Source: Verrucomicrobiaceae bacterium
Lineage (GTDB): Bacteria; Verrucomicrobiota; Verrucomicrobiia; Verrucomicrobiales; Verrucomicrobiaceae
Direction: 5' to 3'
DNA: 64,000 bases
Assembly: GCA_027486585.1 (NCBI GenBank)
Contig: JAIXOU010000020.1
Location: 1-64,000, forward strand
This document shows, in pieces, positions 50,658 to 64,000 of this stretch. The position numbers and the translations under genes were made by a program. Numbering within the stretch: position 1 is the first letter of the stretch; each line of letters begins with the position of its first letter. The notes beneath the pieces were generated by a model. The model worked only from the letters and a program-made list of their open reading frames with translations. It was not told the origin of the DNA and made no database searches.

Positions 50658-52010
50658 TCAGATAAAGGTCCGGCTGTCTGGCGAGGCGCAGACGGCGGTA
50701 AGGACGGTGAGAAAGAGGCGATGCAGCTCTTCGATCTCCGCTTGCGAAAAACGAGTCCAGCGGAACAGCCAGACGACCTCCAGGCCATCACCTGCCTCGG
50801 TGATTTCGCAGGCGAGATCGAAGCGCGGCGTTCCTGTGGAACGTACCTTGAGCTGAACTGAAAACCCAGCCACCGCCAGATCCGGCACGGGCTGGTTTTG
50901 CAGCGCGAAACGCACCACATAGATTGGATTACGTCCCGGAAGTCGAGGTGGATCGAGCGCGCTCACGAGTTCGGCAAAGGGCATGGCATTGGCAAAGCAA
51001 TCCATCGTCGATTGATGCACAGCGCGGAGGCTGTCTGAAAAGGTGCGACTATCATCCACCTGTCCGCGCAAAGGCACGATGCTGGAGAAGTAGCCCATTG
51101 TCTCGCGCACTTCCTGACGTGCTCGATTTGCCACCGGAGTTCCCACCACGATGTCCGCCACACCTGTCCAGCGCGACAGCGTGATTTGAAAGGCGGCGAG
51201 CAGAGTGCTGAACAGTGTCGCGCTGGTTCGTCGCGCCAATTCACGCACGGCGAGACCCAGTTCGGCGGACACTCCTGCAATGCGCCGCTGCAATTGATCT
51301 GATTCATCCAGTGCATCCGCGCGATCATCCCAAAGCCTTGTGGAACCAGCGAGACATGCTTTCCAAAACGTCGCTCGTTGTTCCAGCAGTGCTGGTTGCC
51401 AAAGAGTCCGCTCAGAAGCACCCCAGGCCGTGTAGGAAAGCGCCACAGGCGGCAACTCGCCGCTGGAACCCAACAGCACCTGCGCATAAGCCAAATACAA
51501 ATCCTGCACTAAAACGCCGAGTGACCAGCCATCGGCAATCGCATGATGAATCGCCACCACGAGCACATGATCCGTCGGCGAGCGCCGCAGCACCTCCACG
51601 CGATACAGCGGCCCTTGCACGAGATCGAAAGGCGCATCAAAGGTTTCACGCGCGGCGGCATCCAGGGCTTCAGAGCTTGTGGATGATGATGGCAGGTCAC
51701 GAAATCGCATCACCGGCTCGCTCTGTGCCTGAATCATCTGCACCGCCTGGCCTTTGCTCGGCAAGAAGGACAGCCGCAGCACCTCATGCCGGTTCACCAC
51801 ACGCTGCATCGCAGCAATGCAGTCCTGCGCGGTGATCGCACCTTTGATTTCGATGAGGCAGCAAATCGTGTTTGTCTGATCCGCCACAGGCACCGGAGAT
51901 GCCTCCCACATCTCCCTCTGCGGAAAAGTCAGCGGATGCAGCGAAGCCTTGCCACTATCGAGCCAACGCTTCAGTCGCGTGCGCTTGTCCTCAATGACCA
52001 TCTCGATCAA
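50658..52010 (-). CDS. HHxxxDG acyltransferase/condensation-domain protein (450 aa)
   Basis: Residues 155-161 read HHAIADG, the catalytic motif of NRPS condensation domains and PapA-type acyltransferases (VVAIHHAIADGWSLG). Other blocks match the fold: HPLTFPQREMWEAS, VNRHEVLRLSF, VADIVVGTPVANRARQEVRETMGYFSSIVPLRG (the C-domain bridging motif), and ATLFSTLLAAFQITLSRWTG. The length of 450 is a single stand-alone domain, with no A or T domain. It starts by ATGA overlap with the PKS, which has no thioesterase, so this protein probably moves the polyketide onto an alcohol or amine acceptor, as PapA5 does for PDIM. Acceptor unknown. Confidence 0.88.
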   Translation of the reverse strand: MIEMVIEDKRTRLKRWLDSGKASLHPLTFPQREMWEASPVPVADQTNTICCLIEIKGAITAQDCIAAMQRVVNRHEVLRLSFLPSKGQAVQMIQAQSEPVMRFRDLPSSSTSSEALDAAARETFDAPFDLVQGPLYRVEVLRRSPTDHVLVVAIHHAIADGWSLGVLVQDLYLAYAQVLLGSSGELPPVALSYTAWGASERTLWQPALLEQRATFWKACLAGSTRLWDDRADALDESDQLQRRIAGVSAELGLAVRELARRTSATLFSTLLAAFQITLSRWTGVADIVVGTPVANRARQEVRETMGYFSSIVPLRGQVDDSRTFSDSLRAVHQSTMDCFANAMPFAELVSALDPPRLPGRNPIYVVRFALQNQPVPDLAVAGFSVQLKVRSTGTPRFDLACEITEAGDGLEVVWLFRWTRFSQAEIEELHRLFLTVLTAVCASPDSRTFI

Positions 52011-55000
52011 ACGCGCACCTCCAGCACTTCTGCCTGAATGTGAATGGGGCGATCCGTGGTCGTAGATCCAAGCAACTGATCCAAATCATCATCAGAGATC
52101 GAATCCAGGTCCACGTCTTCAGCGGCGACTGGCTCGGCGACGATCTTTATTGTTTTCGATGGGGCCGCGCCCATGTGTTCGGCAATCAGAGTCGCGATCT
52201 GGCCGATGGTGCGGGCTTTCATCAGACTGGCGGGTGGTAATGCGACGCCGATGGAGCTTTCGATGGAGTTTTCGATCTCGACAGCCATCAGCGAATCGAG
52301 GCCGAGGTCGGTGAGGGGTTGATCGAAGCGCAGACCTTCGGGTTTCACACGTAACACGGAACCTACGACATCGCGCACGGCTTGGCCGATGACTTCGGTG
52401 CGGTCTGCGGGAGCGGCGGACTCGATTTTGAGCCGCCAATCGCTTTTGGCACCGCTTGTTTCGGGTGCATCGACTCCAGCGGCGTAGATGCGTTCCAGCA
52501 GCGGACTTTCCTGGCCGCCACGATAGGATTGACGCCACTTCGACCAGTCCACACGCATCGCCAGCGCCTGCGTGGCTCCGGCATTCAGGAAGGACTCCAC
52601 CAATGTGACAACTTGGACGGGTGAAAGCGGTGTCGTGCCGTGAAGGGCAAGATATTCGGCCACGCGTTCGTTGCGGGCCACATAGCCTTCGCCGCCGAGT
52701 GCACCCCAATTGATCGACAGCGCAGGCAGACCGAGAAAATGGCGGTGATGAGCAAGAGCATCGAGAAAAGCATTTGCGGCGGCATAGTTGGCCTGCGCGG
52801 AATTGCCAAAGACACTCGCCAGCGAGGAGAACATCACAAAGCAATCCAAGTCCATGCCAAGCGTGCCTTCATGCAGCAGCCAAGCTCCGTGCGCTTTAGG
52901 TGCGATGACTTTCATCATTCGATCACGCGTAAGCGAAGCCATGGGCGCATCGTCGATGACCATCGCAAGATGGAACACACCTCTTAAAGGATGCCCGAGC
53001 GATGCGATGTCTCCAAGCACACGCTTCACATCCATCGCTGAGCCAGCATCGGCCTTAATGACCTGCACATTGACGCCACGAGCACGCAATTTGGTCACGA
53101 AGGCTGTGGCTGCGGGTGTGGAAGCCCCGCTGCGGCTGGTGAGCACGAGGTGTTTGGCACCACAGTCAGCCAACCATTCGGCCATGACTTTACCAAAACC
53201 ACCAAAGGCTCCGGTGATCAGATAAGCGCCGTCTGGATTCACTTCAAAGGCTGGGACCAGCGGTTCGCCACGCCTTGCGACGAAAGGTTCGGGGAAGGAC
53301 ACGATGACTTTGCCGGTGTGTTTGCCCTGCGCCATCAGGCGGAAGGCGGAGTCGATGCGGCAAGCTGGGAAGGAGCGGAAGGGCAGCGGTTGCAGCGCCT
53401 TTTGCTCAACCAACTCGGCGATGGTTTCCAAGATCTGACGCGTGCGTTTTTCATCGCCACTGAAGATCGCGTCCATCGCGACGACATGGAAAGAGGCGTT
53501 CTTCCGCAACGGCCACAGCGGGATGCGGCTGTTTTGGTAGATGTCGCGTTTGCCGATCTCGATGAAGCGTCCGAACTGCGCGAGACAGGAAAGGCCCATC
53601 GGGATGGCTTCGGCGGCGAGTGCGTTCAGCACCACATCCACGCCTTTGCCATCGGTGAGTTCCATAACGGCTTCCGCAAAGTCAGCGCGACGCGAATCGA
53701 TGACGTGCTTCACGCCAAGGACGGTGAGCAGCGAGCGTTTGGCCGCGCTGCCAGCACTGGCAATGACTTCCGCGCCGAGATGGTGCGCGATTTGAATCGC
53801 CGCCATGCCCACGCCGCCTGCGCCTGCATGAACGAGCACTCGCTCGCCCGGTTGCAACTGCGCCACGGTTTTCAGTGCATGCCAGGAGGTCATAAAGACC
53901 ACGGGCAGCGTCGCTGCTTCTTCAAACGACAAGCCATCGGGGATGATGCGCACATCACCAGCACGCGCCATGGAGTCAGTTGCGAGTCCGAACACGGCGA
54001 GGCCAAACACGCGGTCGCCAGCCTTCACATGGGTGACTCCAGCACCGACGGTTTTCACCACACCGGCCACTTCATCGCCAAAAATGCGAGCATCGGCTGT
54101 CTCAGCCGGATAAAGCGCCAGCGCCTTGAGCACATCGCGGAAATTCATGCCAGCGGCCTTCACATCGATCACCACCTCACCTACGCCACAGGGCGGCAGC
54201 GCGAATGGCACGAGACGCAAGGCATCAAGCAAGCCGCGCTCGCGAGATTCGAGTCTTAGAGGCACGTTGCGATCCAAGACCTGCTCTCGCGGTTCCAAAC
54301 CGCGAGTGACGCGGCGGACATAGCGTGCTTCGCCTCGGAAGGCGATCTCACGCTCGGTGTCTTGTTGCAGCAGCTCATTCCAAAGCAGTGCAGTGTCCGT
54401 GGTCGTCGTTTCGGACGGCAGATCAATGCTGCGGCAAGTGAAGTTGTTGTGCTCATTGGCGATCACACGCATCAGGCCGATGGATGGAGCTTGAGAGAGG
54501 GAGATGTCGTTGTTTCTACCTATAGGCTGGGCAGAACGTGTAATGACATCGAGATGCAGTTTAGCTGTTGGATGGATAAGCTCGATGGCCTGTGTCAGAT
54601 TAAACAAGGCGTCGGTGCCGAGCATGGCGTCGCCTGGATCGGACTCATCGAGACTCCACAGGAAGACAAAGCGCTCAGGGGCTTCATCGGCGCAGGCTTG
54701 CAGGAGTTGTTTCCAATCTTCGGACGCTTCGCCCCGCAGGGTGAATGCGTCTGCTGCTTCGGACTCGAACGCACCACCACGATAGGCGATGCGACAGCGA
54801 ACACCGCTGTGGCGCAACTGCATGGCGAGTTTTTCGCCAAGACCAGACGAATCAGCGAATACGAGCCAGGACTTCTCGGCAGGCGCTTCGACAATCACTG
54901 GTGCTATCGTGATTGGCTCGCTCCATGGTTTGCGAGCCATGAGGCCGATGAGGCTTTCACCGCCTTGGGAGCGGATCAGGCCCGAAAGCGAGGCTGTTTC

Positions 55001-58000
55001 GCTGAATCCAGTTTCGCCGAGCACTTTCTGCCATTGCTCGCGCTCCAACAGCGGATGATGCGGACGGAGGTCGCGATCTGTGAAGCGCCACCAACCGCTG
55101 GTGAGGCCAAAGACGGCGTTTAGCCACAAGTGGGGCGTGGCGACATCGACAAAGAGCAAGCTGCCACCAGAGGCGAGAAGGTCATTGATGTTGCGAAGTG
55201 CGACGCGCACATCGCTGACAGCATGGATCACATTGGTGCCGAGAATGATGTCAAAAGAGCCGAGATCGAACTCTTGTTCGTTGCCTGGCTTTTCGAGATC
55301 GAAGGTGTGAAACTCGACTTCGGGATAAGCGGCCAGCTTTTGACGCGCAGCTGGGAAGAAGGCGGCGGAAACATCGCTGAAGACATAGGAATGCACGCCG
55401 CGCTCAATGATCGGCAGCACCTGAGAGGCGAGGCCGCCGGTGCCGGCGCCGATTTCCAGAATGCGCAGGCCGCGTCCTTCAGGAAGCTGACGCGCAGCCT
55501 CGGCCACCGCGCTGCCGATGGCGGCAAGCCAGGGACTCGTGACGAGGCCATCGCCATAAAATTGATCAAGCAAATCAGCGCCGCCGCTGGTGAACAAGAC
55601 CTGCACGGCCTCTTTTTCGCCACGCATGATGGGACCGAGTTCCGCGCATGTGGCACCGCAGAGCAAGGCCTCCGGCAGATGGCCTGGATACTTGCCGAGA
55701 CTCTCACTGAGCAGTTCATCCGCGCTGTCAGCTGCTTCCGTGAACTCAGGCGTGGTTTGATAGCTACCCTGTTCTTTGGTGAGCAAATTCAATAACACCA
55801 AATTGTCTGCGAGTTGCTCAAATGAGCGATGCATGGACTGCGCTACGCTGAGCGATTCGGCAGTGAAGAATTCATCTTCGGTGCAGCCAGCGCCCATGTC
55901 TCGCAGACCATTCGCGACTTGCGCGGCAGTGAGTTTGTCGCCTGCGGCACTGGCGGCATCCAGATTGCCACGGCCACGCATGTCGAGCACTTCATCCAGC
56001 GCATGCTGTGCCGCTTCATGCAGACGACTCAATGCCACAGGTGCAGGAGAAGCGGCGCGAGGACTTGTGGGACGCTTTTCCCAAGCAACGTGGTAAGTCA
56101 CATCGCGGCCTTTGCCGGTTTTACCCGTGCGTTTGGCCCCTTCCACGCTGATGGCGCGGAAGCCGTCGATGCGCACGCAGGGCTTGCCGGATTCATCAAA
56201 GAGTTCGATACCGCCTTCGACAAACTCATCGTTGGCCTGCTTCACACCGGCACGCACGAGACTCGATGCTCCGGGCGAACGTAGGAATAAGATGCGGGCA
56301 AAGCGCACAGGCAACCGCAGCCCGGCGGTGCGGCCCTCAATCGTCGCGGCACCGGCGGAGAAGATTTGCAGCGCACCGTCAAAGAGCACGGGATGCAGCG
56401 GATACTCGGACGCACGCGACGCAATCGCTTGGCCCAATGAAACACGACCAGAGGACTTGCCAGCGCCTGCGGACAGCTCGCGGATGGGGCGGAATTCCTC
56501 GCCGTAGCGCAGGCCCATGTCGGCCATGTGACCGTAGAAGGTATCGAGGCCGACGTTTGGCAAAGTGGATGTCTCCCAAGCCGATGTGGCGAAAGATGAC
56601 TCGGTGCGTTCGCCGCGCATGCAGCCGACGACATGTGTGGACCATGAAGCCCCGGCTTCAAATTTGCTCTGAATCGAGAACGTGCGCTCCGCGATATCAT
56701 AACTCAGCTCAAGCAGCAGGCCGGACGGTGGATCGGGCAGAATGAGAGGCTTGCGGATCTCGAAGTCCTCAATGACGAAGGCTTTGCCCTCAAACAACTG
56801 CACACCGGCTTCGAGCACCATTTCGACAAAGCCTGCGGCGGGAAAGATGATGAGGTTTTCGACACGATGATCCTTCAGGAAGGCCATGTGGCGATTGTCG
56901 AGTCGTGTGATCCATGTCGGCATGGCACGCGCGAGCTGGACATCAAGCAATCCGCGACCACCAGGAGCCAGACGACCCTCGCGCATGTCGGCGGATTCAT
57001 TCCACCAGCGTGCTTTGTCCCATGAGTATGTCGGCAGCGTAAGAAGACGACGTGATGGCGTTAGCGCCTTGAAGTCGAGCACGACACCGGCAAGGTGCAG
57101 ATCCATCGCGGTTTCGAGCAAGGATTCGTGCTCGCGTTCGCGCCGTGTCGATGCCAGCACGGTGCTTTCGCCGAGACATTCCTGAATGGAACGTACCAGC
57201 GCAGGATGAGCGCCGATTTCGAGCCAGGCATCGACGCCAAATTCTGACAATGCGGCAATCGCCGAGGCGAACTCGACTGGTTGCCGCACGCCGCGCGACC
57301 AGTGGCCCGCATCGCATGATGCGCCATCAAGACGCTGACCCGTGACGGTGCTGAAGAACGGAAGTCTCTCGGGCGTGGGCGTGAGATCAGCCATCGCTGT
57401 CTTTAAGGCATCAGCGGCGGGCTGCATCATCGCGTGATGGAAGGGATGACTGACTTGCAAGAAGCGGGCAAAGACGCCTTTTGATTCCAGTTCGGCAGCA
57501 ATGACTTCCAGCGAGGTCTTCAAGCCCGACAACGTCAACGAGCGAGGGCCATTGAACGCGGCGATGCTCACTGTGCGATCGTGTTTGGCGATCACCGCAC
57601 GAGCTTCGTCGGGACTCATGCCGACGGCGAGCATGGTGCCACCAGCAGCCTCACACTCATCCATGAAACGACCGCGCAGCACGATGATCTTCGCGGCCTG
57701 ATCAAGGGTGAGGATGCCAGCGATACAAGCTGCGGCGACTTCACCCACACTGTGCCCGACGACAGCCGCAGGCTGAACTCCCCAAGACTGCCAAAGCGCT
57801 GCTTGTGCCATCTGCATGGCGAAGATCGCAGGCTGCGAGATCTCGGTGCGCTGCATCTTTGTTTCGGTCTCGGGGCGATTGAGTTCGTCCATCAGTGAGA
57901 ACTTGGCCCAAGGACGCATGGCCTTGTCGCAGGCCTCGATCATGCGTTTGAAGACCGGTTCATGCTGCATGAGTTCACGGCCCATGCCCTGCCATTGCGG

Positions 58001-59695
58001 TCCTTGACCGCTCATGACAAAGACTACACGCGTGGCTTGTTCGGGACGCGGTGTGAAGGCGGTGCGCATACGCGGGCCGGGCTGTCCGGTCGAGAAGGCG
58101 CTGAGCTCCTGCACCATCTCGCCAATTGTGCGGGAGGTGAGCGCGAGGCGATGCGAGTGATGGTTCCGCCGCACACCGAGCATGTAGGTCAGATCAGGGA
58201 GCAGTGGCGAGCTGCCATTGAGCTTCGAGTGATCATCCAGCCACACGCTCAATTGCCACGCCGAGGCACGCAATGCCTCCTCGGAGCGTGCAGACAACGT
58301 CAAAGGCCAAGCTCGGCTTGTATCAGGTGTCACGTGAGCCCTTGGTGCCAACTTCGGGGCTTCAGAGAGAATCACATGTGCATTGGAACCTCCGAAGCCG
58401 AAGGAATTGATGCCAGCAAGCCGCGTGGCACCATTTCCGGGAAAGGTTTCATTCGCCACAGGCATGCGCAGTTTCAGCGCGGTGAAATCAATGTGTGGAT
58501 TTGGCGTGTCAAAGTGGAGACTGGCCGGGATGCGTCCGTGTTTGAGCACTAACGCAGCTTTGACAAGGCCAGCGACGCCAGAGGCGGTTTCCAAGTGACC
58601 GAGGTTCGTCTTCACCGAGCCAATGACAAGCGGATTGGCATCGGTGCGGTCGGCGCAGAGTGCTTCAGCCAGTGCGTGCGCTTCAATGGGGTCGCCCACG
58701 GCGGTTCCGGTGCCGTGAGCTTCGACGTAACCGATTTGTGAAGGTTTGACGCCTGCAAAGACACACGCATCGCGAACGAGACGCGCTTGCGCTTCTGGGC
58801 TTGGCAAAGAGATGCCATTCGTGTGGCCATCCGAATTCACCGCTGAGCCGACGATAACCGCATGAATGGGATCGCCATCGGCGATGGCTTCGGAGAGCTT
58901 TTTCAAGAGCACCATCCCCGCGCCTTCACCACGCACGAAGCCATTAGCCGAGGCATCGAATGCTTTGCATTTGCCTTCGGGAGAAAGCATTCCGGCTTGC
59001 GAGAAGCCGATGAAACCATCCGGCGTGATCATCACAGTCACGCCGCCCGCCATCGCGGTTTTGCAATGACCGGCCAGGATGTGCTCACAGGCCACATGCA
59101 CGGCGGTGAGCGCAGAGGAGCAAGCTGTGTCCATCGCGATGCTCGGTCCGGTGAGGTTTAGGCAATAGGAGATGCGATTCGCCGCGATGCTGTGCGCACT
59201 CCCTGTGGGTGTGTGTGCACTGATGCCCGCACGATCCGTGGCAGTGTGTTGCAAGCCTTGGTAATCATTGTGCGAGATGCCAACGAAAACACCGATGTCC
59301 GTGCCCTTGTCGAGATCGAGCACCACGCCAGCATCTTCGATGGCTTCATACGCTGTTTCGAGCAACAAGCGCTGCTGCGGATCGATGTAAGGTGCCTCAC
59401 GTGGCGAGATGCCGAAGAACTGTGGATCGAACTGGTCAATGCCATCAATAAAGCCGCCGCGTTTGGCGACTGTCTTGCCGACGATGCCAGGTTCCGCATC
59501 GTAGAAGCGCTCCACATTCCAGCGATCCGCTGGCACATCGCCCACGGCCTCGCGCCCATCTTCCAGCAGCTTCCAGAACGACTCTGCGTCTTTCACCCCA
59601 CCAGGGAAACGGCAGCCGATGCCAATGATCGCGATGCCCTCCTTGTTTGGCGTTGCAGACTGGGTCGGTGAAGCTGGATGGGCGAGTGTAGGCAT
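52007..59695 (-). CDS. Single-module highly reducing type I polyketide synthase, KS-AT-DH-MT-ER-KR-ACP (2562 aa)
   Basis: Domains by motif (residues approximate): KS 17-440 with DTACSSAL (Cys about 188), VEAHGTGTAVGDP and KTNLGHLE; AT about 550-870 with GHSVGE (Ser about 648) and SHPFHH, a malonyl-type loop. DH about 920-1200 starts LKDHRVENLIIFPAAG, with a second motif HPVLFDGALQ. C-methyltransferase about 1370-1600 has LEIGAGTGGLAS and a TDRDLRPHH end. ER about 1785-2110 has VLVHAGAGGVGMAAIQIA. KR about 2130-2310 has LITGAFGGFGK and NYAAANAFLDAL. ACP about 2455-2525 has LGLDSLMAVE. All reductive domains plus MT suggest a saturated, methyl-branched chain, possibly iterative. No thioesterase: release is likely by the downstream acyltransferase. 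No phosphopantetheinyl transferase is in the window. Confidence 0.93.
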   Translation of the reverse strand: MPTLAHPASPTQSATPNKEGIAIIGIGCRFPGGVKDAESFWKLLEDGREAVGDVPADRWNVERFYDAEPGIVGKTVAKRGGFIDGIDQFDPQFFGISPREAPYIDPQQRLLLETAYEAIEDAGVVLDLDKGTDIGVFVGISHNDYQGLQHTATDRAGISAHTPTGSAHSIAANRISYCLNLTGPSIAMDTACSSALTAVHVACEHILAGHCKTAMAGGVTVMITPDGFIGFSQAGMLSPEGKCKAFDASANGFVRGEGAGMVLLKKLSEAIADGDPIHAVIVGSAVNSDGHTNGISLPSPEAQARLVRDACVFAGVKPSQIGYVEAHGTGTAVGDPIEAHALAEALCADRTDANPLVIGSVKTNLGHLETASGVAGLVKAALVLKHGRIPASLHFDTPNPHIDFTALKLRMPVANETFPGNGATRLAGINSFGFGGSNAHVILSEAPKLAPRAHVTPDTSRAWPLTLSARSEEALRASAWQLSVWLDDHSKLNGSSPLLPDLTYMLGVRRNHHSHRLALTSRTIGEMVQELSAFSTGQPGPRMRTAFTPRPEQATRVVFVMSGQGPQWQGMGRELMQHEPVFKRMIEACDKAMRPWAKFSLMDELNRPETETKMQRTEISQPAIFAMQMAQAALWQSWGVQPAAVVGHSVGEVAAACIAGILTLDQAAKIIVLRGRFMDECEAAGGTMLAVGMSPDEARAVIAKHDRTVSIAAFNGPRSLTLSGLKTSLEVIAAELESKGVFARFLQVSHPFHHAMMQPAADALKTAMADLTPTPERLPFFSTVTGQRLDGASCDAGHWSRGVRQPVEFASAIAALSEFGVDAWLEIGAHPALVRSIQECLGESTVLASTRREREHESLLETAMDLHLAGVVLDFKALTPSRRLLTLPTYSWDKARWWNESADMREGRLAPGGRGLLDVQLARAMPTWITRLDNRHMAFLKDHRVENLIIFPAAGFVEMVLEAGVQLFEGKAFVIEDFEIRKPLILPDPPSGLLLELSYDIAERTFSIQSKFEAGASWSTHVVGCMRGERTESSFATSAWETSTLPNVGLDTFYGHMADMGLRYGEEFRPIRELSAGAGKSSGRVSLGQAIASRASEYPLHPVLFDGALQIFSAGAATIEGRTAGLRLPVRFARILFLRSPGASSLVRAGVKQANDEFVEGGIELFDESGKPCVRIDGFRAISVEGAKRTGKTGKGRDVTYHVAWEKRPTSPRAASPAPVALSRLHEAAQHALDEVLDMRGRGNLDAASAAGDKLTAAQVANGLRDMGAGCTEDEFFTAESLSVAQSMHRSFEQLADNLVLLNLLTKEQGSYQTTPEFTEAADSADELLSESLGKYPGHLPEALLCGATCAELGPIMRGEKEAVQVLFTSGGADLLDQFYGDGLVTSPWLAAIGSAVAEAARQLPEGRGLRILEIGAGTGGLASQVLPIIERGVHSYVFSDVSAAFFPAARQKLAAYPEVEFHTFDLEKPGNEQEFDLGSFDIILGTNVIHAVSDVRVALRNINDLLASGGSLLFVDVATPHLWLNAVFGLTSGWWRFTDRDLRPHHPLLEREQWQKVLGETGFSETASLSGLIRSQGGESLIGLMARKPWSEPITIAPVIVEAPAEKSWLVFADSSGLGEKLAMQLRHSGVRCRIAYRGGAFESEAADAFTLRGEASEDWKQLLQACADEAPERFVFLWSLDESDPGDAMLGTDALFNLTQAIELIHPTAKLHLDVITRSAQPIGRNNDISLSQAPSIGLMRVIANEHNNFTCRSIDLPSETTTTDTALLWNELLQQDTEREIAFRGEARYVRRVTRGLEPREQVLDRNVPLRLESRERGLLDALRLVPFALPPCGVGEVVIDVKAAGMNFRDVLKALALYPAETADARIFGDEVAGVVKTVGAGVTHVKAGDRVFGLAVFGLATDSMARAGDVRIIPDGLSFEEAATLPVVFMTSWHALKTVAQLQPGERVLVHAGAGGVGMAAIQIAHHLGAEVIASAGSAAKRSLLTVLGVKHVIDSRRADFAEAVMELTDGKGVDVVLNALAAEAIPMGLSCLAQFGRFIEIGKRDIYQNSRIPLWPLRKNASFHVVAMDAIFSGDEKRTRQILETIAELVEQKALQPLPFRSFPACRIDSAFRLMAQGKHTGKVIVSFPEPFVARRGEPLVPAFEVNPDGAYLITGAFGGFGKVMAEWLADCGAKHLVLTSRSGASTPAATAFVTKLRARGVNVQVIKADAGSAMDVKRVLGDIASLGHPLRGVFHLAMVIDDAPMASLTRDRMMKVIAPKAHGAWLLHEGTLGMDLDCFVMFSSLASVFGNSAQANYAAANAFLDALAHHRHFLGLPALSINWGALGGEGYVARNERVAEYLALHGTTPLSPVQVVTLVESFLNAGATQALAMRVDWSKWRQSYRGGQESPLLERIYAAGVDAPETSGAKSDWRLKIESAAPADRTEVIGQAVRDVVGSVLRVKPEGLRFDQPLTDLGLDSLMAVEIENSIESSIGVALPPASLMKARTIGQIATLIAEHMGAAPSKTIKIVAEPVAAEDVDLDSISDDDLDQLLGSTTTDRPIHIQAEVLEVRV

Positions 59696-59954: not shown

Positions 59955-59972
59955 ATGGGATATAAACCCCAT
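59955..59972 (+). promoter_or_regulatory. Stress palindrome, arsDA operon
   Basis: ATGGGATATAAACCCCAT followed by GGCTTTCC in plus sense; 44 nt before ATG 60017. It diverges from the PKS palindrome 137 nt away; the rest of 59696-60016 holds no supported gene. Confidence 0.7.
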
Positions 59973-60016: not shown

Positions 60017-60346
60017 ATGAAAACCATCCAAGTCTATGACCCGCCCATGTGCTGCTCCACCGGCATCTGCAGCACCGATATTGATCCTGATCTCGTTAAC
60101 TTCGCCGCGATGCTTTCCCAGCTCAGCACGCATGGGATCAAGGTCGAGCGCTTCAACCTCGGACAACAGCCCATGGCCTTTGTGCAAAACCCGGCGGTGA
60201 AGGTTTTGCTGAACACCGAAGGCGCGGAGGCGCTGCCTCTGATCTTCTGGGATGGTGAGGTGCATCTCAAAGGTCGCTACCCGACGAAGGACGAACGCCC
60301 CGGCTGGTTCCGCGCGGCACTTGGCAAAGCGGAGGTGGCACCATGA
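60017..60346 (+). CDS. arsD: ArsD-like arsenite metallochaperone (109 aa)
   Basis: MKTIQVYDPPMCCSTGICST has the Cys12-Cys13-Cys18 triad of ArsD, followed by SQLSTHGIKVERFNLGQQPMAF and LPLIFWDGEVHLKGRYPT, the usual C-terminal blocks. ArsD hands arsenite or antimonite to ArsA. It overlaps arsA by ATGA. No ArsR or ArsB is visible nearby. Confidence 0.93.
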   Translation: MKTIQVYDPPMCCSTGICSTDIDPDLVNFAAMLSQLSTHGIKVERFNLGQQPMAFVQNPAVKVLLNTEGAEALPLIFWDGEVHLKGRYPTKDERPGWFRAALGKAEVAP

Positions 60347-62142
60347 AAATGCCATTTTATCAGCCCGATGTCGCGACCATGACGCGCTTTCTCTTTTTTA
60401 CTGGCAAAGGCGGCGTCGGTAAGACTTCGCTCTCCTGTGCCACGGCGCTGAAGCTCGTCGATGCTGGTAAACGTGTGCTGCTAGTCAGCACTGACCCTGC
60501 TTCCAATCTCGACGAGGTCCTCGACACAAAGCTCACCAACAAGCCTACACCCATTCTTGGCGCGCTGGGTCTGGATGCTCTGAACATCAATCCCGTCGAA
60601 GCCGCTGCGGCGTATCGCGAGCGGCTCATCGGCCCCATGCGCGGCCTGTTGCCTGAGGCCGCTTTGCGCAGCATGGAGGAGCAACTTTCAGGCTCCTGCA
60701 CAGTAGAGATCGCGGCGTTTGATGAGTTCTCAGGACTCATCGGGAATCCAGAATCGGCGAAAGATTACGACCATGTCATCTTCGACACCGCGCCAACGGG
60801 TCACACGCTACGCTTGATGAGTTTGGCGAAGGCCTGGGATCAGTTTCTGGACAAGAACACCAGCGGCACGTCCTGTCTCGGACCGCTGGCGGGTTTGGAA
60901 AAGCAGCGCGTGATTTATGAAGCCACGGTCAAGACGCTCGCCGATGCAAAAGCCACGACGCTCGTGCTTGTGAGCCGCCCACAAGGTGCTGCGCTGCGTG
61001 AAGCGGAACGCACTTCCAAGGAACTGCGTGCCATCGGCGTGGGCAATCAATGCCTCGTGGTGAACGGCACCTTTGAAACCCAGTGCCCGGAAGACGTGAC
61101 CGCACAGGCCATGCAGCAGCGTGGTTTGGCCGCTTTGAAGGCATCCGCAGAATTCATCAGCTCCATGCCGAGCTTCATCGTGCCTCTGCGGCCCATCAAC
61201 ATACTCGGCATCAGCGGTCTGCGAGTGCTGCTCAGCGGCGATGCGCAGGGAAAATGCGTGAAGGCAGATGAAAGCGGCTGGACACCTCCTGAGATGGAAA
61301 GTCTCGAAGACCTCGTCAGCACCATCGAGCAGCAGGGCCATGGTGTGATCATGACCATGGGCAAGGGCGGCGTGGGTAAGACCACCGTTGCTGCTGCCAT
61401 CGCGGTAATGCTCGCACGTCGCGGACATTCGGTGCATCTCAGCACCACGGATCCCGCAGCGCATGTGGCTCAGACTTTGCATGGCAAGGTGGATGGCCTT
61501 ACGCTCAGCAAGATCGATCCCGCAGCGGAAACCGCCGCCTATCAAGGCGAGGTCATGCAGGCCCAAGGTGCGGCCATGGATGATGCAGGCCGCGCCTTGC
61601 TCGAAGAAGACCTGCGCTCGCCCTGCACGGAAGAAATCGCCGTGTTCCGTGCCTTTGCGCGTGAAGTGGGCCGAGGCACAGGTCGCTTCGTCGTTCTCGA
61701 CACCGCCCCCACGGGACACACGCTTCTTTTACTCGATGCCAGCGAGGCCTATCAGCGAGAACTCGAACGCCAAGCCCGCAGCACGCAGCCTGAGGAAGTG
61801 CTCAAACTCCTCGAACGCCTTCGCGATCCTGAGTACACCCGCATCCTCCTCGTTACCCTGCCTGAGGCCACGCCCGTGCATGAAGCCGCCGCGTTGCAGG
61901 ACGACCTGCGCCGTGCGCGCATTGAGCCCTTTGCTTGGGTCATCAATCAAAGCCTGCTCAACAGCGGCTCCTGCGACCCTTTGCTGAAATGCCGTGAAGC
62001 CTCTGAGCACCGCTACCTGAGTGAGGTTGTGGAGAAACAGGCCAAGCGGACCGCCTGGCTGCCGTGGCAAGCCGAAGAACCCATCGGCCCCGATGCGCTC
62101 GCACGGCTTGCTTCTTCGAATCTCCATTCCTTAAAATCGTGA
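60343..62142 (+). CDS. arsA: ArsA-type anion-pumping ATPase, two-domain (599 aa)
   Basis: Two P-loops, FTGKGGVGKTSLS (about 20) and TMGKGGVGKTTVAAA (about 340), with DTAPTGHTLRLM and DTAPTGHTLLLL (DTAP) in each half. Arsenite-binding Cys of the E. coli enzyme have counterparts: SGSCTVEIA, GTSCLGPLAG and SPCTEEIAVF. The full-length two-domain form is arsenical-pump type. With no ArsB in the window, a pump partner must lie elsewhere if it acts in resistance. Confidence 0.93.
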   Translation: MKMPFYQPDVATMTRFLFFTGKGGVGKTSLSCATALKLVDAGKRVLLVSTDPASNLDEVLDTKLTNKPTPILGALGLDALNINPVEAAAAYRERLIGPMRGLLPEAALRSMEEQLSGSCTVEIAAFDEFSGLIGNPESAKDYDHVIFDTAPTGHTLRLMSLAKAWDQFLDKNTSGTSCLGPLAGLEKQRVIYEATVKTLADAKATTLVLVSRPQGAALREAERTSKELRAIGVGNQCLVVNGTFETQCPEDVTAQAMQQRGLAALKASAEFISSMPSFIVPLRPINILGISGLRVLLSGDAQGKCVKADESGWTPPEMESLEDLVSTIEQQGHGVIMTMGKGGVGKTTVAAAIAVMLARRGHSVHLSTTDPAAHVAQTLHGKVDGLTLSKIDPAAETAAYQGEVMQAQGAAMDDAGRALLEEDLRSPCTEEIAVFRAFAREVGRGTGRFVVLDTAPTGHTLLLLDASEAYQRELERQARSTQPEEVLKLLERLRDPEYTRILLVTLPEATPVHEAAALQDDLRRARIEPFAWVINQSLLNSGSCDPLLKCREASEHRYLSEVVEKQAKRTAWLPWQAEEPIGPDALARLASSNLHSLKS

Positions 62143-62157
62143 CCATCAGCACCTACC

Positions 62158-62847
62158 ATGAGACACTTTGAAAGACATAGGACACACCGAGTCGGCTGGC
62201 TTCGTGCTGCTGTGCTCGGTGCCAATGACGGCATCGTTTCCACCGCCAGCTTGATTGTTGGTGTAGCCGCCGCAGACGCTACACGCAGCAGCGTGCTGGT
62301 AGCCGGACTGGCTGGTCTTGTCGCTGGAGCTATGTCCATGGCTGCTGGCGAATATGTCTCTGTCAGTTCGCAAGCCGACACTGAGGGCGCTGATTTGGAG
62401 CGTGAGCGACAAGAGTTGGCCAACGACGGTGACAACGAACTCGCCGAACTCGCCGCCATCTACGTCACTCGTGGACTCGAGCCTGACCTCGCTAAACAGG
62501 TGGCCACTCAACTAACGGCCAAAGACGCACTCGGTGCCCATGCTCGAGATGAACTGGGCATCTCCGACACCTTGAGCGCACGGCCCGTGCAGGCAGCCTT
62601 CGCGTCAGCGGGCAGCTTTACAGTCGGTGCGGTATTGCCACTGCTGCTGGTCTTCTTCGTGCCGCATGCAGCGCTGACTTGGGTGGTTTCCGGCAGTTCG
62701 TTGCTATTTCTTGCTCTGCTAGGTGCGGTGGCCGCTCACGCAGGAGGTTCGTCCATTGGTAAGTCCGTCGTCCGTGTCACTTTTTGGGGTGCGCTGGCCA
62801 TGGCCCTCACTGCTGCCGTGGGAGCTTTGTTTGGAACGACCCTTTGA
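62158..62847 (+). CDS. VIT1/CCC1-family membrane transporter (229 aa)
   Basis: RTHRVGWLRAAVLGANDGIVSTASLIVGVAAA is the VIT1/CCC1 start, with AGAMSMAAGEYVSVSSQADTE, the conserved metal-coordinating segment. LERERQELANDGDNELAELAAIY is the cytosolic helix, and a C-terminal three-helix region follows. These transporters move Fe(II) or Mn(II). It starts 15 nt after arsA and is probably cotranscribed. Confidence 0.92.
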   Translation: MRHFERHRTHRVGWLRAAVLGANDGIVSTASLIVGVAAADATRSSVLVAGLAGLVAGAMSMAAGEYVSVSSQADTEGADLERERQELANDGDNELAELAAIYVTRGLEPDLAKQVATQLTAKDALGAHARDELGISDTLSARPVQAAFASAGSFTVGAVLPLLLVFFVPHAALTWVVSGSSLLFLALLGAVAAHAGGSSIGKSVVRVTFWGALAMALTAAVGALFGTTL

Positions 62848-62876
62848 CCCAATCCATCAACCTTACGAAGCCTGCG

Positions 62877-62895
62877 ATTGGGGTTTACACCCCAT
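62877..62895 (+). promoter_or_regulatory. Stress palindrome, katG remnant
   Basis: ATTGGGGTTTACACCCCAT in plus sense; 73 nt before ATG 62969. Confidence 0.65.
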
Positions 62896-62968
62896 AGCGA
62901 TTGAACCCCTGTCTCATTGAAAGAGCTTCAGAGTTTCCGACATCGCGAAAACAACCTGCCCCTGGACC

Positions 62969-64000
62969 ATGAAAATGACACGCTTGCCGATCTTCCTTAT
63001 CCCCTGGAGACTTTTCTGGACTCTCGGTGCAGAGAAGGCTCACGCCCAATCCGCGCCTGATAAGGGCACCGTGCCCGATGCTCACGATCCGCTGAAGAGT
63101 CACCCGCCGATGATGTTCACGACGGATATGTCGCTGAAAATGGACCCCGTTTATGCGAAGATCTCGAAGAACTTCCACGAGAACCCGGAACTGTTTCAGA
63201 AAGCGTTCTCCAAGACGTGGTATAAGCTCACGCACCGCGACCTCGGTCCTGTTACGAGATGCCTGGGACCGTTGGTTGCAGAGCCACAGCTGTGGCAGGA
63301 CCCCGTGCCCGCCGTTGATCATCCGCTGATCGGGGACAAGGACATCGCCACCCTCAAGACAAAGTTGCTGGCCTCGAAACTGTCGATCTCCCAACTCATA
63401 TCAACCGCTTGGGCGTCGGCCTCCACTTTTCGCGGCAGCGACAATCGTGGCGGAGCCAATGGAGCCCGCATCCGCCTCGCACCGCAGAAAGACTGGGAGG
63501 TCAACCAACCGGCAGAACTCGCGAAGGTTCTGCCGATCTTTGAGGACATCCAGAAGGAGTTCAATGCCGCACAGAGCGGCGGTAAGAAGGTCTCGCTCGC
63601 TGATTTGATCGTGCTGGGCGGGTGCGCTGCTGTCGAAGTCGCTGCAAAAAACAGAGGACATGAAGTGATCGTCCCATTCTCACCGCAACGGACTGATGCA
63701 TCCCAAGAGATGACCGACGTGGCGGCTTTTGCCGTTCTTGAACCAAAGGCAGACGGCTTCCGCAACTCCCTCGGTCACGAACTCGACCGACCTGCCCCAG
63801 AGACGCTAATTGACCGCACCCAACTGCTCACGCTCACAGCACCCGAGATGAGCGTGCTCATCGGCGGCATGAGGGCGCTGAATACCAACGTCGGGGTTCC
63901 AGAGCTCGGAGTCTTTACCAAGCAGCAAGAGTCCTTGAGCAACGACTTTTTTGTGAACCTCTTGGACACGGGCACAGCGTGGGAAAAGTCGCCCAAGTGC
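62969..64000 (+). pseudogene. katG: Truncated katG (C-terminal domain only), runs off the right edge
   Basis: From ATG 62969 the frame is open to the edge. After a short basic-hydrophobic start ([20 protein letters not shown] ... [10 protein letters not shown]) it aligns with the C-terminal half of catalase-peroxidase: [69 protein letters not shown] and [21 protein letters not shown]. The catalytic haem domain (RxxWHxAGTYR and proximal His region) is missing, so it cannot be an active KatG. The leader looks like a signal peptide, so an in-frame internal deletion of a periplasmic KatG is likely. It is not frame-broken, so a non-catalytic role is possible. Confidence 0.75.

Follow-up and report, generated by a model that had tools for sequence, protein, structure and literature searches.

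Gene content and reading frame of the katG fragment

The window, meaning the whole stretch of 64,000 nucleotides analyzed here (positions 1 to 64,000 of contig JAIXOU010000020.1, Verrucomicrobiaceae bacterium, assembly GCA_027486585.1), ends inside a katG-like gene that follows arsD, arsA and a transporter gene on the same strand. The features of this region are:

60017..60346, + strand: arsD (NF033727, above cut-off), with a one-mismatch palindrome in front at 59956-59971
60343..62142, + strand: arsA, arsenical pump-driving ATPase (TIGR04291, above cut-off)
62158..62847, + strand: VIT1-family transporter, the upstream neighbor (Pfam PF01988, E 9.6e-69)
62879..62894, no strand: palindrome TGGGGT-TTAC-ACCCCA (TGGGGTTTACACCCCA), candidate operator by its recurrence in the genome, centered 82 bp before the ATG
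62969..63058, + strand: leader of the ORF, residues 1-30, signal-peptide-like and of unproven origin (similarity tests, own-genome search)
63059..63067, + strand: junction codons GAT AAG GGC (D-K-G), start of clear KatG homology (DNA alignment, anchored tests)
63068..63322, + strand: remaining tail of the KatG haem domain (N-terminal), residues 34-118, which includes the TTD motif (from alignment with solved KatG chains)
63332..64000, + strand: KatG C-terminal (haem-free) domain, running past the window as far as the stop that ends at contig position 64225 (Pfam PF00141, NCBIfam, full ORF)

On the far side of the ars genes, a look at the sequence suggests an adjoining 2562-aa modular polyketide-synthase-like gene (52007-59695, minus strand).

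The katG-like frame starts with the ATG at 62969, is still open at the window edge and closes with a TAA whose last base is contig position 64225, encoding 418 aa. Its interior holds zero stops, and its tail is the normal KatG ending NKVMNLDRFDL followed by eight residues. An earlier, sequence-only reading had described, from 62969 onward, a C-terminal half of KatG in an open frame with the catalytic domain absent, and profile matches, alignment and the full ORF bear out both the description and its coordinates. Decay or stops just past the right edge, the mark of a simple pseudogene, are absent and the frame reaches the natural KatG C-terminus. NF011635 matches ORF residues 20-410 (E 2e-180) from model position 333 to the model end and TIGR00198 matches residues 23-412 (E 7e-157), with scores below the whole-protein cut-offs for KatG (523.5 vs 770.25 bits for TIGR00198 and 601.6 vs 981 bits for NF011635). 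Pfam places PF00141 at residues 139-384 (E 6.8e-28). This match, together with the 113 of 117 near-invariant columns that are kept, identifies the peroxidase-like haem-free C-terminal domain of KatG, which here lies in a complete frame with its own start and stop, as a stand-alone C-domain protein demands.

Alignment to solved structures defines what was lost. ORF residues 19-410 pair with residues 351-742 of the 743-residue chain 1sj2_A, given as M. tuberculosis KatG in a table of PMC4232752. A passage of PMC8355310 names Arg104, Trp107 and His108 on the distal side of KatG, His270 and Trp321 on the proximal side, and Asp381. Assuming three extra residues at the start of 1sj2_A, the first five all fall upstream of the junction, and Asp381 alone of the residues in that passage lies inside the ORF, at about residue 53 (TTD) by the 1sj2_A offset. 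The distal Arg/Trp/His and proximal His/Trp that characterize the N-terminal haem domain are thus missing, as is the model sequence before position 333. If made, the product should neither bind haem in the fashion of KatG nor act as a catalase. The domain border of two fungal KatGs, located at residues 428/429 and 448/449 in a passage of PMC10376177, maps very roughly to ORF residues 112-132. By these alignments, about 80 residues of the haem-domain end are kept along with the whole C-terminal domain; the earlier description as a C-terminal half of KatG consequently stands, while that of a C-terminal domain alone does not. A cut about 80 residues before the domain border, instead of at the border, makes an accident look likelier than a designed domain. 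An AlphaFold2 model built from a shallow alignment of 30 rows has a mean pLDDT of 62, with block means of about 35 for residues 1-30, 46 for residues 31-120 and 71 for residues 121-410. With the caveat of the shallow alignment, these values fit a C-terminal domain that folds and a haem-domain tail that does not.

The fragment is followed by a GH130-family gene, whose candidate ATG at L004:1507 or 1546 (coordinates of locus L004) overlaps the fragment end by 20 bp or follows it by 19 bp, the fragment stop ending at L004:1526. Next come a 1110-aa type IIG-like restriction-methylation protein and a 224-aa protein (L004:2800-6810, contig C61 65499-69509), the latter having no PADLOC or Pfam match. 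The spacing to GH130 would suit a translated spacer, i.e., a fragment persisting mainly because its translation feeds the downstream gene, and the neighbors of GH130 differ in the four relatives read. Such coupling, however, selects for an open frame and not for KatG residues, and yet 113 of the 117 near-invariant columns are retained, so that we consider this explanation quite unlikely.

VIT1, GH130 and katG do not occur together in nine stretches from relatives (four chosen for VIT1, four for GH130 and one for katG; in one of the VIT1 stretches, VIT1 itself was not recovered by ORF picking). The sole match to the neighboring genes among 109 katG loci is a distant GH130 (27%) in one of them. 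In the relatives L144 (G028:C83) and L145 (G058:C33), GH130 is accompanied, by sequence look, by fructose-bisphosphate-aldolase-like and phosphoketolase-like genes, with the palindrome nearby. A local gene order unseen in the relatives read, in a draft assembly of 147 contigs, could point to an assembly or binning error that fused two genomes into one chimera or collapsed a repeat. Against this, the frame is intact across the join, the fragment is no copy of the other katG of the genome, and the contig has 11 copies of the palindrome, which lie between 11.7 and 107.5 kb and flank the junction on either side. We regard such an artifact as highly improbable.

Leader and candidate operator

KatG-like DNA is recognizable from GAT AAG GGC ACC at 63059 onward, placing the edge of clear homology at 63059-63068. 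The preceding leader, with its charged start, a mostly hydrophobic stretch containing one Arg and an A-x-A end, resembles a signal peptide by eye. Leaders are frequent on KatGs of the genus and often end in A-S-A-Q or A-L-A-Q. In semi-global comparison of the fragment leader with these KatG leaders, 1.3% of shuffles reach the mean score and 31% the best score; in local comparison the corresponding figures are 27% and 82%.

Two origins of the leader were considered and rejected. A copy taken from another gene found no counterpart, as a second copy is absent from the own genome at E 0.001; a search of the genus gave short matches only, the best of which (E 1.8e-4) falls on the palindrome with its flanking sequence and not on the leader. 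Decayed KatG interior was likewise rejected on tests that are not unanimous, the rejection depending on the omission of D-K-G. With D-K-G included, the mean score over 33 residues is reached by 2% of shuffles and the best score by 0.7%; for the 49-residue upstream extension the figures are 0.7% and 0 of 300. Without D-K-G the anchored test gives no KatG-interior signal (13% of shuffles reach the mean and 13% the best score). Neither the upstream protein in three stretches (20-60% for the mean, 21-68% for the best score) nor the upstream DNA in five lengths (24-45% and 19-47%) stands out from shuffles when compared with the KatG interior. Some tblastn alignments extend back to residue 8, with few identities in the leader part.

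The palindrome TGGGGTNNNNACCCCA upstream of the ATG is one of many. Its sites with at most one mismatch are:

11706, 26683, 39808, 40499, 59956, 62879: in the window
74712, 84719, 93294, 105896, 107498: on the contig beyond the window

The recurrence exceeds chance. Six sites in the window compare with 0.09 expected, a number reached by 0 of 100 shuffles. The own genome holds seven exact copies vs zero in the reversed control, and 19 vs 3 when one mismatch is allowed; 11 of these 19 lie on the 124.5-kb contig (binomial 8e-15, a post hoc value as the motif was first noticed there). Across the genus, 30 of 47 genomes, own genome included, contain at least one exact site, with a total of 125 sites vs 9 in the control.

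Every one of the 11 sites of the contig lies between -70 and +170 bp relative to the start of a mechanical ORF, compared with 19.5% of random positions. Two of these placements are doubtful: the ORF counted for 59956 is short and reverse, arsD itself starting 53 bp downstream of that site, and the site at 74712, which is internal to an alpha-amylase-family gene in its longest reading, was counted through a reverse ORF. Genes near the sites encode ArsD, an aldehyde dehydrogenase, a YflT-type stress protein, a ferritin-like (Dps-type) protein and the KatG fragment, and further an outer-membrane efflux protein, an MlaE permease and an RsbU_N protein; three of the ten site-adjacent genes scanned have no Pfam family. 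Within the genus, 12 of 36 loci examined have the site inside a mechanical ORF, so not every site stands at a promoter. The earlier proposal of a stress-type element is strengthened by this recurrence near the starts of stress-type genes, and the palindrome looks like a candidate operator of a stress regulon. To our knowledge, and judged by eye, it does not resemble OxyR or DosR boxes. A sigma-70-like site was not found within 62700-63200. Only one of the 109 katG loci has the palindrome, located there downstream of katG and before the next gene; the fragment therefore appears to be wired to the regulation of this contig and not to that of katG itself.

Relatives and evolutionary rate

The earlier suggestion to look for an N-terminal half or a full katG elsewhere in the genome yielded one complete katG on contig C144 (732 aa, 64% identical over the shared part), with no orphan N-terminal half at E 0.001. 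The complete gene begins MNDISKCPVMG, without a leader, and adjoins a LysR-like gene by sequence look. The closest relative of the fragment in a search of 56 genomes is a full-length KatG in G012 (76% identity), and the full-length KatGs of this search align with fragment residues 34-412 nearly end to end at 58-76% identity.

A second gene of this kind did not appear in three overlapping genome sets, each including the own genome. In the set of 56 genomes, 32 had matches, own included, and the other C-half matches sit in frames of at least 614 aa, the frame of 614 being cut by a contig end. A genus search matched 33 of 48 genomes, the smallest frame again having 614 aa. The phylum search (threshold E 1e-60, at most six candidates scored per genome) matched 64 of 288 genomes; the four shortest frames (578, 592, 621 and 678 aa) belong to G170, which is frameshifted, G275, which is cut by a contig end, G324, which lacks the first ~116 residues, and G148, which is full length. 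Accordingly, a stand-alone C-terminal half was found in none of the 55, 47 and 287 other genomes of these overlapping sets, for the last set at the threshold and candidate number given, and conservation as a stand-alone C-domain gene in more than one genome is absent from the searched sets. Two damaged genes were noted along the way. L201 (G324:C1:861500-865500) encodes a KatG without match to about the first 116 residues, whose distal haem residues would be gone, and L204 (G170:C2:58500-62500) carries an apparent katG pseudogene, distributed over three reading frames.

Named genomes contain at least 592 confirmed relatives, of which the best 80 were used; the best-listed ones are mostly MAGs labelled as Verrucomicrobiota- or Planctomycetota-type. 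Together with 29 from further genomes, these 80 form the set of 109 katG loci (L007-L115). Frames were measured in 97 of them, and the other 12, checked by tblastn, span KatG from residue 1-29 to residue 730-731. Four of the 97 frames are shorter than 700 aa: those of L027, L069 and L097 start at a contig end, and a run of N interrupts the fourth. No locus among the 109 could be shown to carry a stand-alone C-terminal half, L069, which starts at a contig end, being the one without a visible N-terminal half. In a tree of 94 C-terminal halves, the fragment branches next to 22 sequences that form a clade (support 0.81; 0.97 with the fragment), mostly from its own genus and including the complete katG of the same genome.

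Four of the 117 near-invariant columns are broken in the fragment, compared with a median of one over the 94 sequences; four or more are broken in three sequences, the fragment among them. Its 385 codons are free of stops, whereas neutral change would be expected to introduce about 38 for each substitution per site; any neutral phase was therefore short (below ~0.08 substitutions per site, an estimate from zero events). In a relative-rate test that used L036 and L011 as outgroups and covered 15 of the 22 sisters, the fragment is less protein-altering than its sister in 12 of 15 pairs and has more unique amino-acid changes in three of 15. An earlier test against L007 with six outgroup sets gave Fisher p >0.05 in five sets and 0.041 in one, with the fragment more protein-altering, and more unique amino-acid changes in the fragment in all six; according to the tree, L007 is slow and one set (L009, L013) is not an outgroup. 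Among the 94 sequences, the fragment ranks 56 in root-to-tip distance and 18 in terminal branch length. Faster change in the orphaned haem-domain tail was considered and found unconvincing, the tail/C-domain ratio of 1.18 being exceeded in nine of 93 other sequences. By these comparisons, the fragment appears to evolve at a normal rate, being either young or still constrained. A young relic fits this rate as well as a working protein does; the test with 15 sisters speaks against an old relic and does not separate a young relic from a constrained gene.

Interpretation and comparison with known systems

The explanation that we favor (probability roughly 0.57) is a young, catalytically dead truncation of katG, fused to a leader under the operator of this island and most likely a non-functional passenger that is probably co-transcribed with GH130. 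By deletion or recombination, the last ~385 KatG residues would have come to follow a promoter region, a candidate stress operator and a short leader. Transcription of the resulting unit probably starts at its own operator-bearing promoter, with the fragment as first gene and the GH130-family gene behind it. The event would be young relative to the divergence of the gene, and the fragment most likely a passenger without function whose decay is still to come. Transcription, youth and lack of function are what we infer here; the truncation itself is apparent from the catalytic residues lying upstream of the junction. The reading further draws on the complete katG elsewhere in a genome without an orphan N-terminal half at the threshold used, the lack of a stand-alone C-terminal half in the genome sets and among the katG loci, the position of the cut before the domain boundary, the gene order absent from the nine relative stretches, the four broken columns vs a median of one, and the occurrence of damaged katGs in the phylum (G324, G170). 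Counting against a non-functional truncation are the lack of stops, a codon-position pattern that is not relaxed and the unremarkable tree ranks, as well as the possession of an own candidate operator, whereas katG loci have next to none.

These same points would suit a working protein, namely a haem-free KatG C-terminal protein that is produced under stress, is exported and acts non-enzymatically in the periplasm as folding or binding partner of a peroxidase or of its own dimer. Its frame is intact and its rate normal, the leader looks like a signal peptide by eye, and the candidate operator 82 bp upstream is common to stress-type genes; moreover, the E. coli KatG C-terminal domain has been solved alone (1U2J, table in PMC4232752). 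On the other hand, the searched sets contain no second genome with a stand-alone C-terminal half, the only complete katG of the genome lacks a leader, so that no exported KatG partner is seen, and the retained N-domain tail is poorly modelled. We regard a working protein as possible though unlikely. Very doubtful is the stronger proposal of a new gene, in which the fusion of an operator-bearing stress promoter and a signal-peptide leader to the KatG C-terminal half would have created a periplasmic, haem-free and non-enzymatic partner or scaffold.

According to a passage of PMC8355310, it is not clearly understood what role the C-terminal domain plays in KatG, and a natural gene for a nearly lone C-terminal domain behind an apparently regulated promoter would allow an in vivo test of this role. 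Should the fragment be a relic, as we judge likelier, its main value lies in cautioning against annotation as a catalase. The recurring operator is a more general lead than the fragment.

Compared with known systems, the fragment is closest to bacterial KatG, with which it shares nearly end-to-end alignment over residues 34-412 and a normal C-terminus. It differs from full KatG in that just under half of the protein is absent at the front, and with it the distal Arg/Trp/His and the proximal His/Trp, hence also the Trp-Tyr-Met adduct. Its leader likens it to exported KatGs, 18 of the 22 sequences of its sister clade carrying a signal-peptide-like leader (by eye). Such exported forms we take to be KatP-like. 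The damaged katGs of G324 and G170 in the same phylum have likewise lost part of the gene, but the former misses only ~116 residues and the latter is broken by frameshifts, neither combining a leader with a C-terminal half. Separate KatG-like C-terminal domains are mentioned in one sentence of PMC4232752, which points to PeroxiBase and presents them as evidence on early peroxidase evolution; by this mention, the kind is already known. Going by that description and not by sequence, the fragment shares with them a KatG-like C-terminal domain encoded without the haem domain, to which it adds a haem-domain tail of ~80 residues, a leader and a candidate operator.
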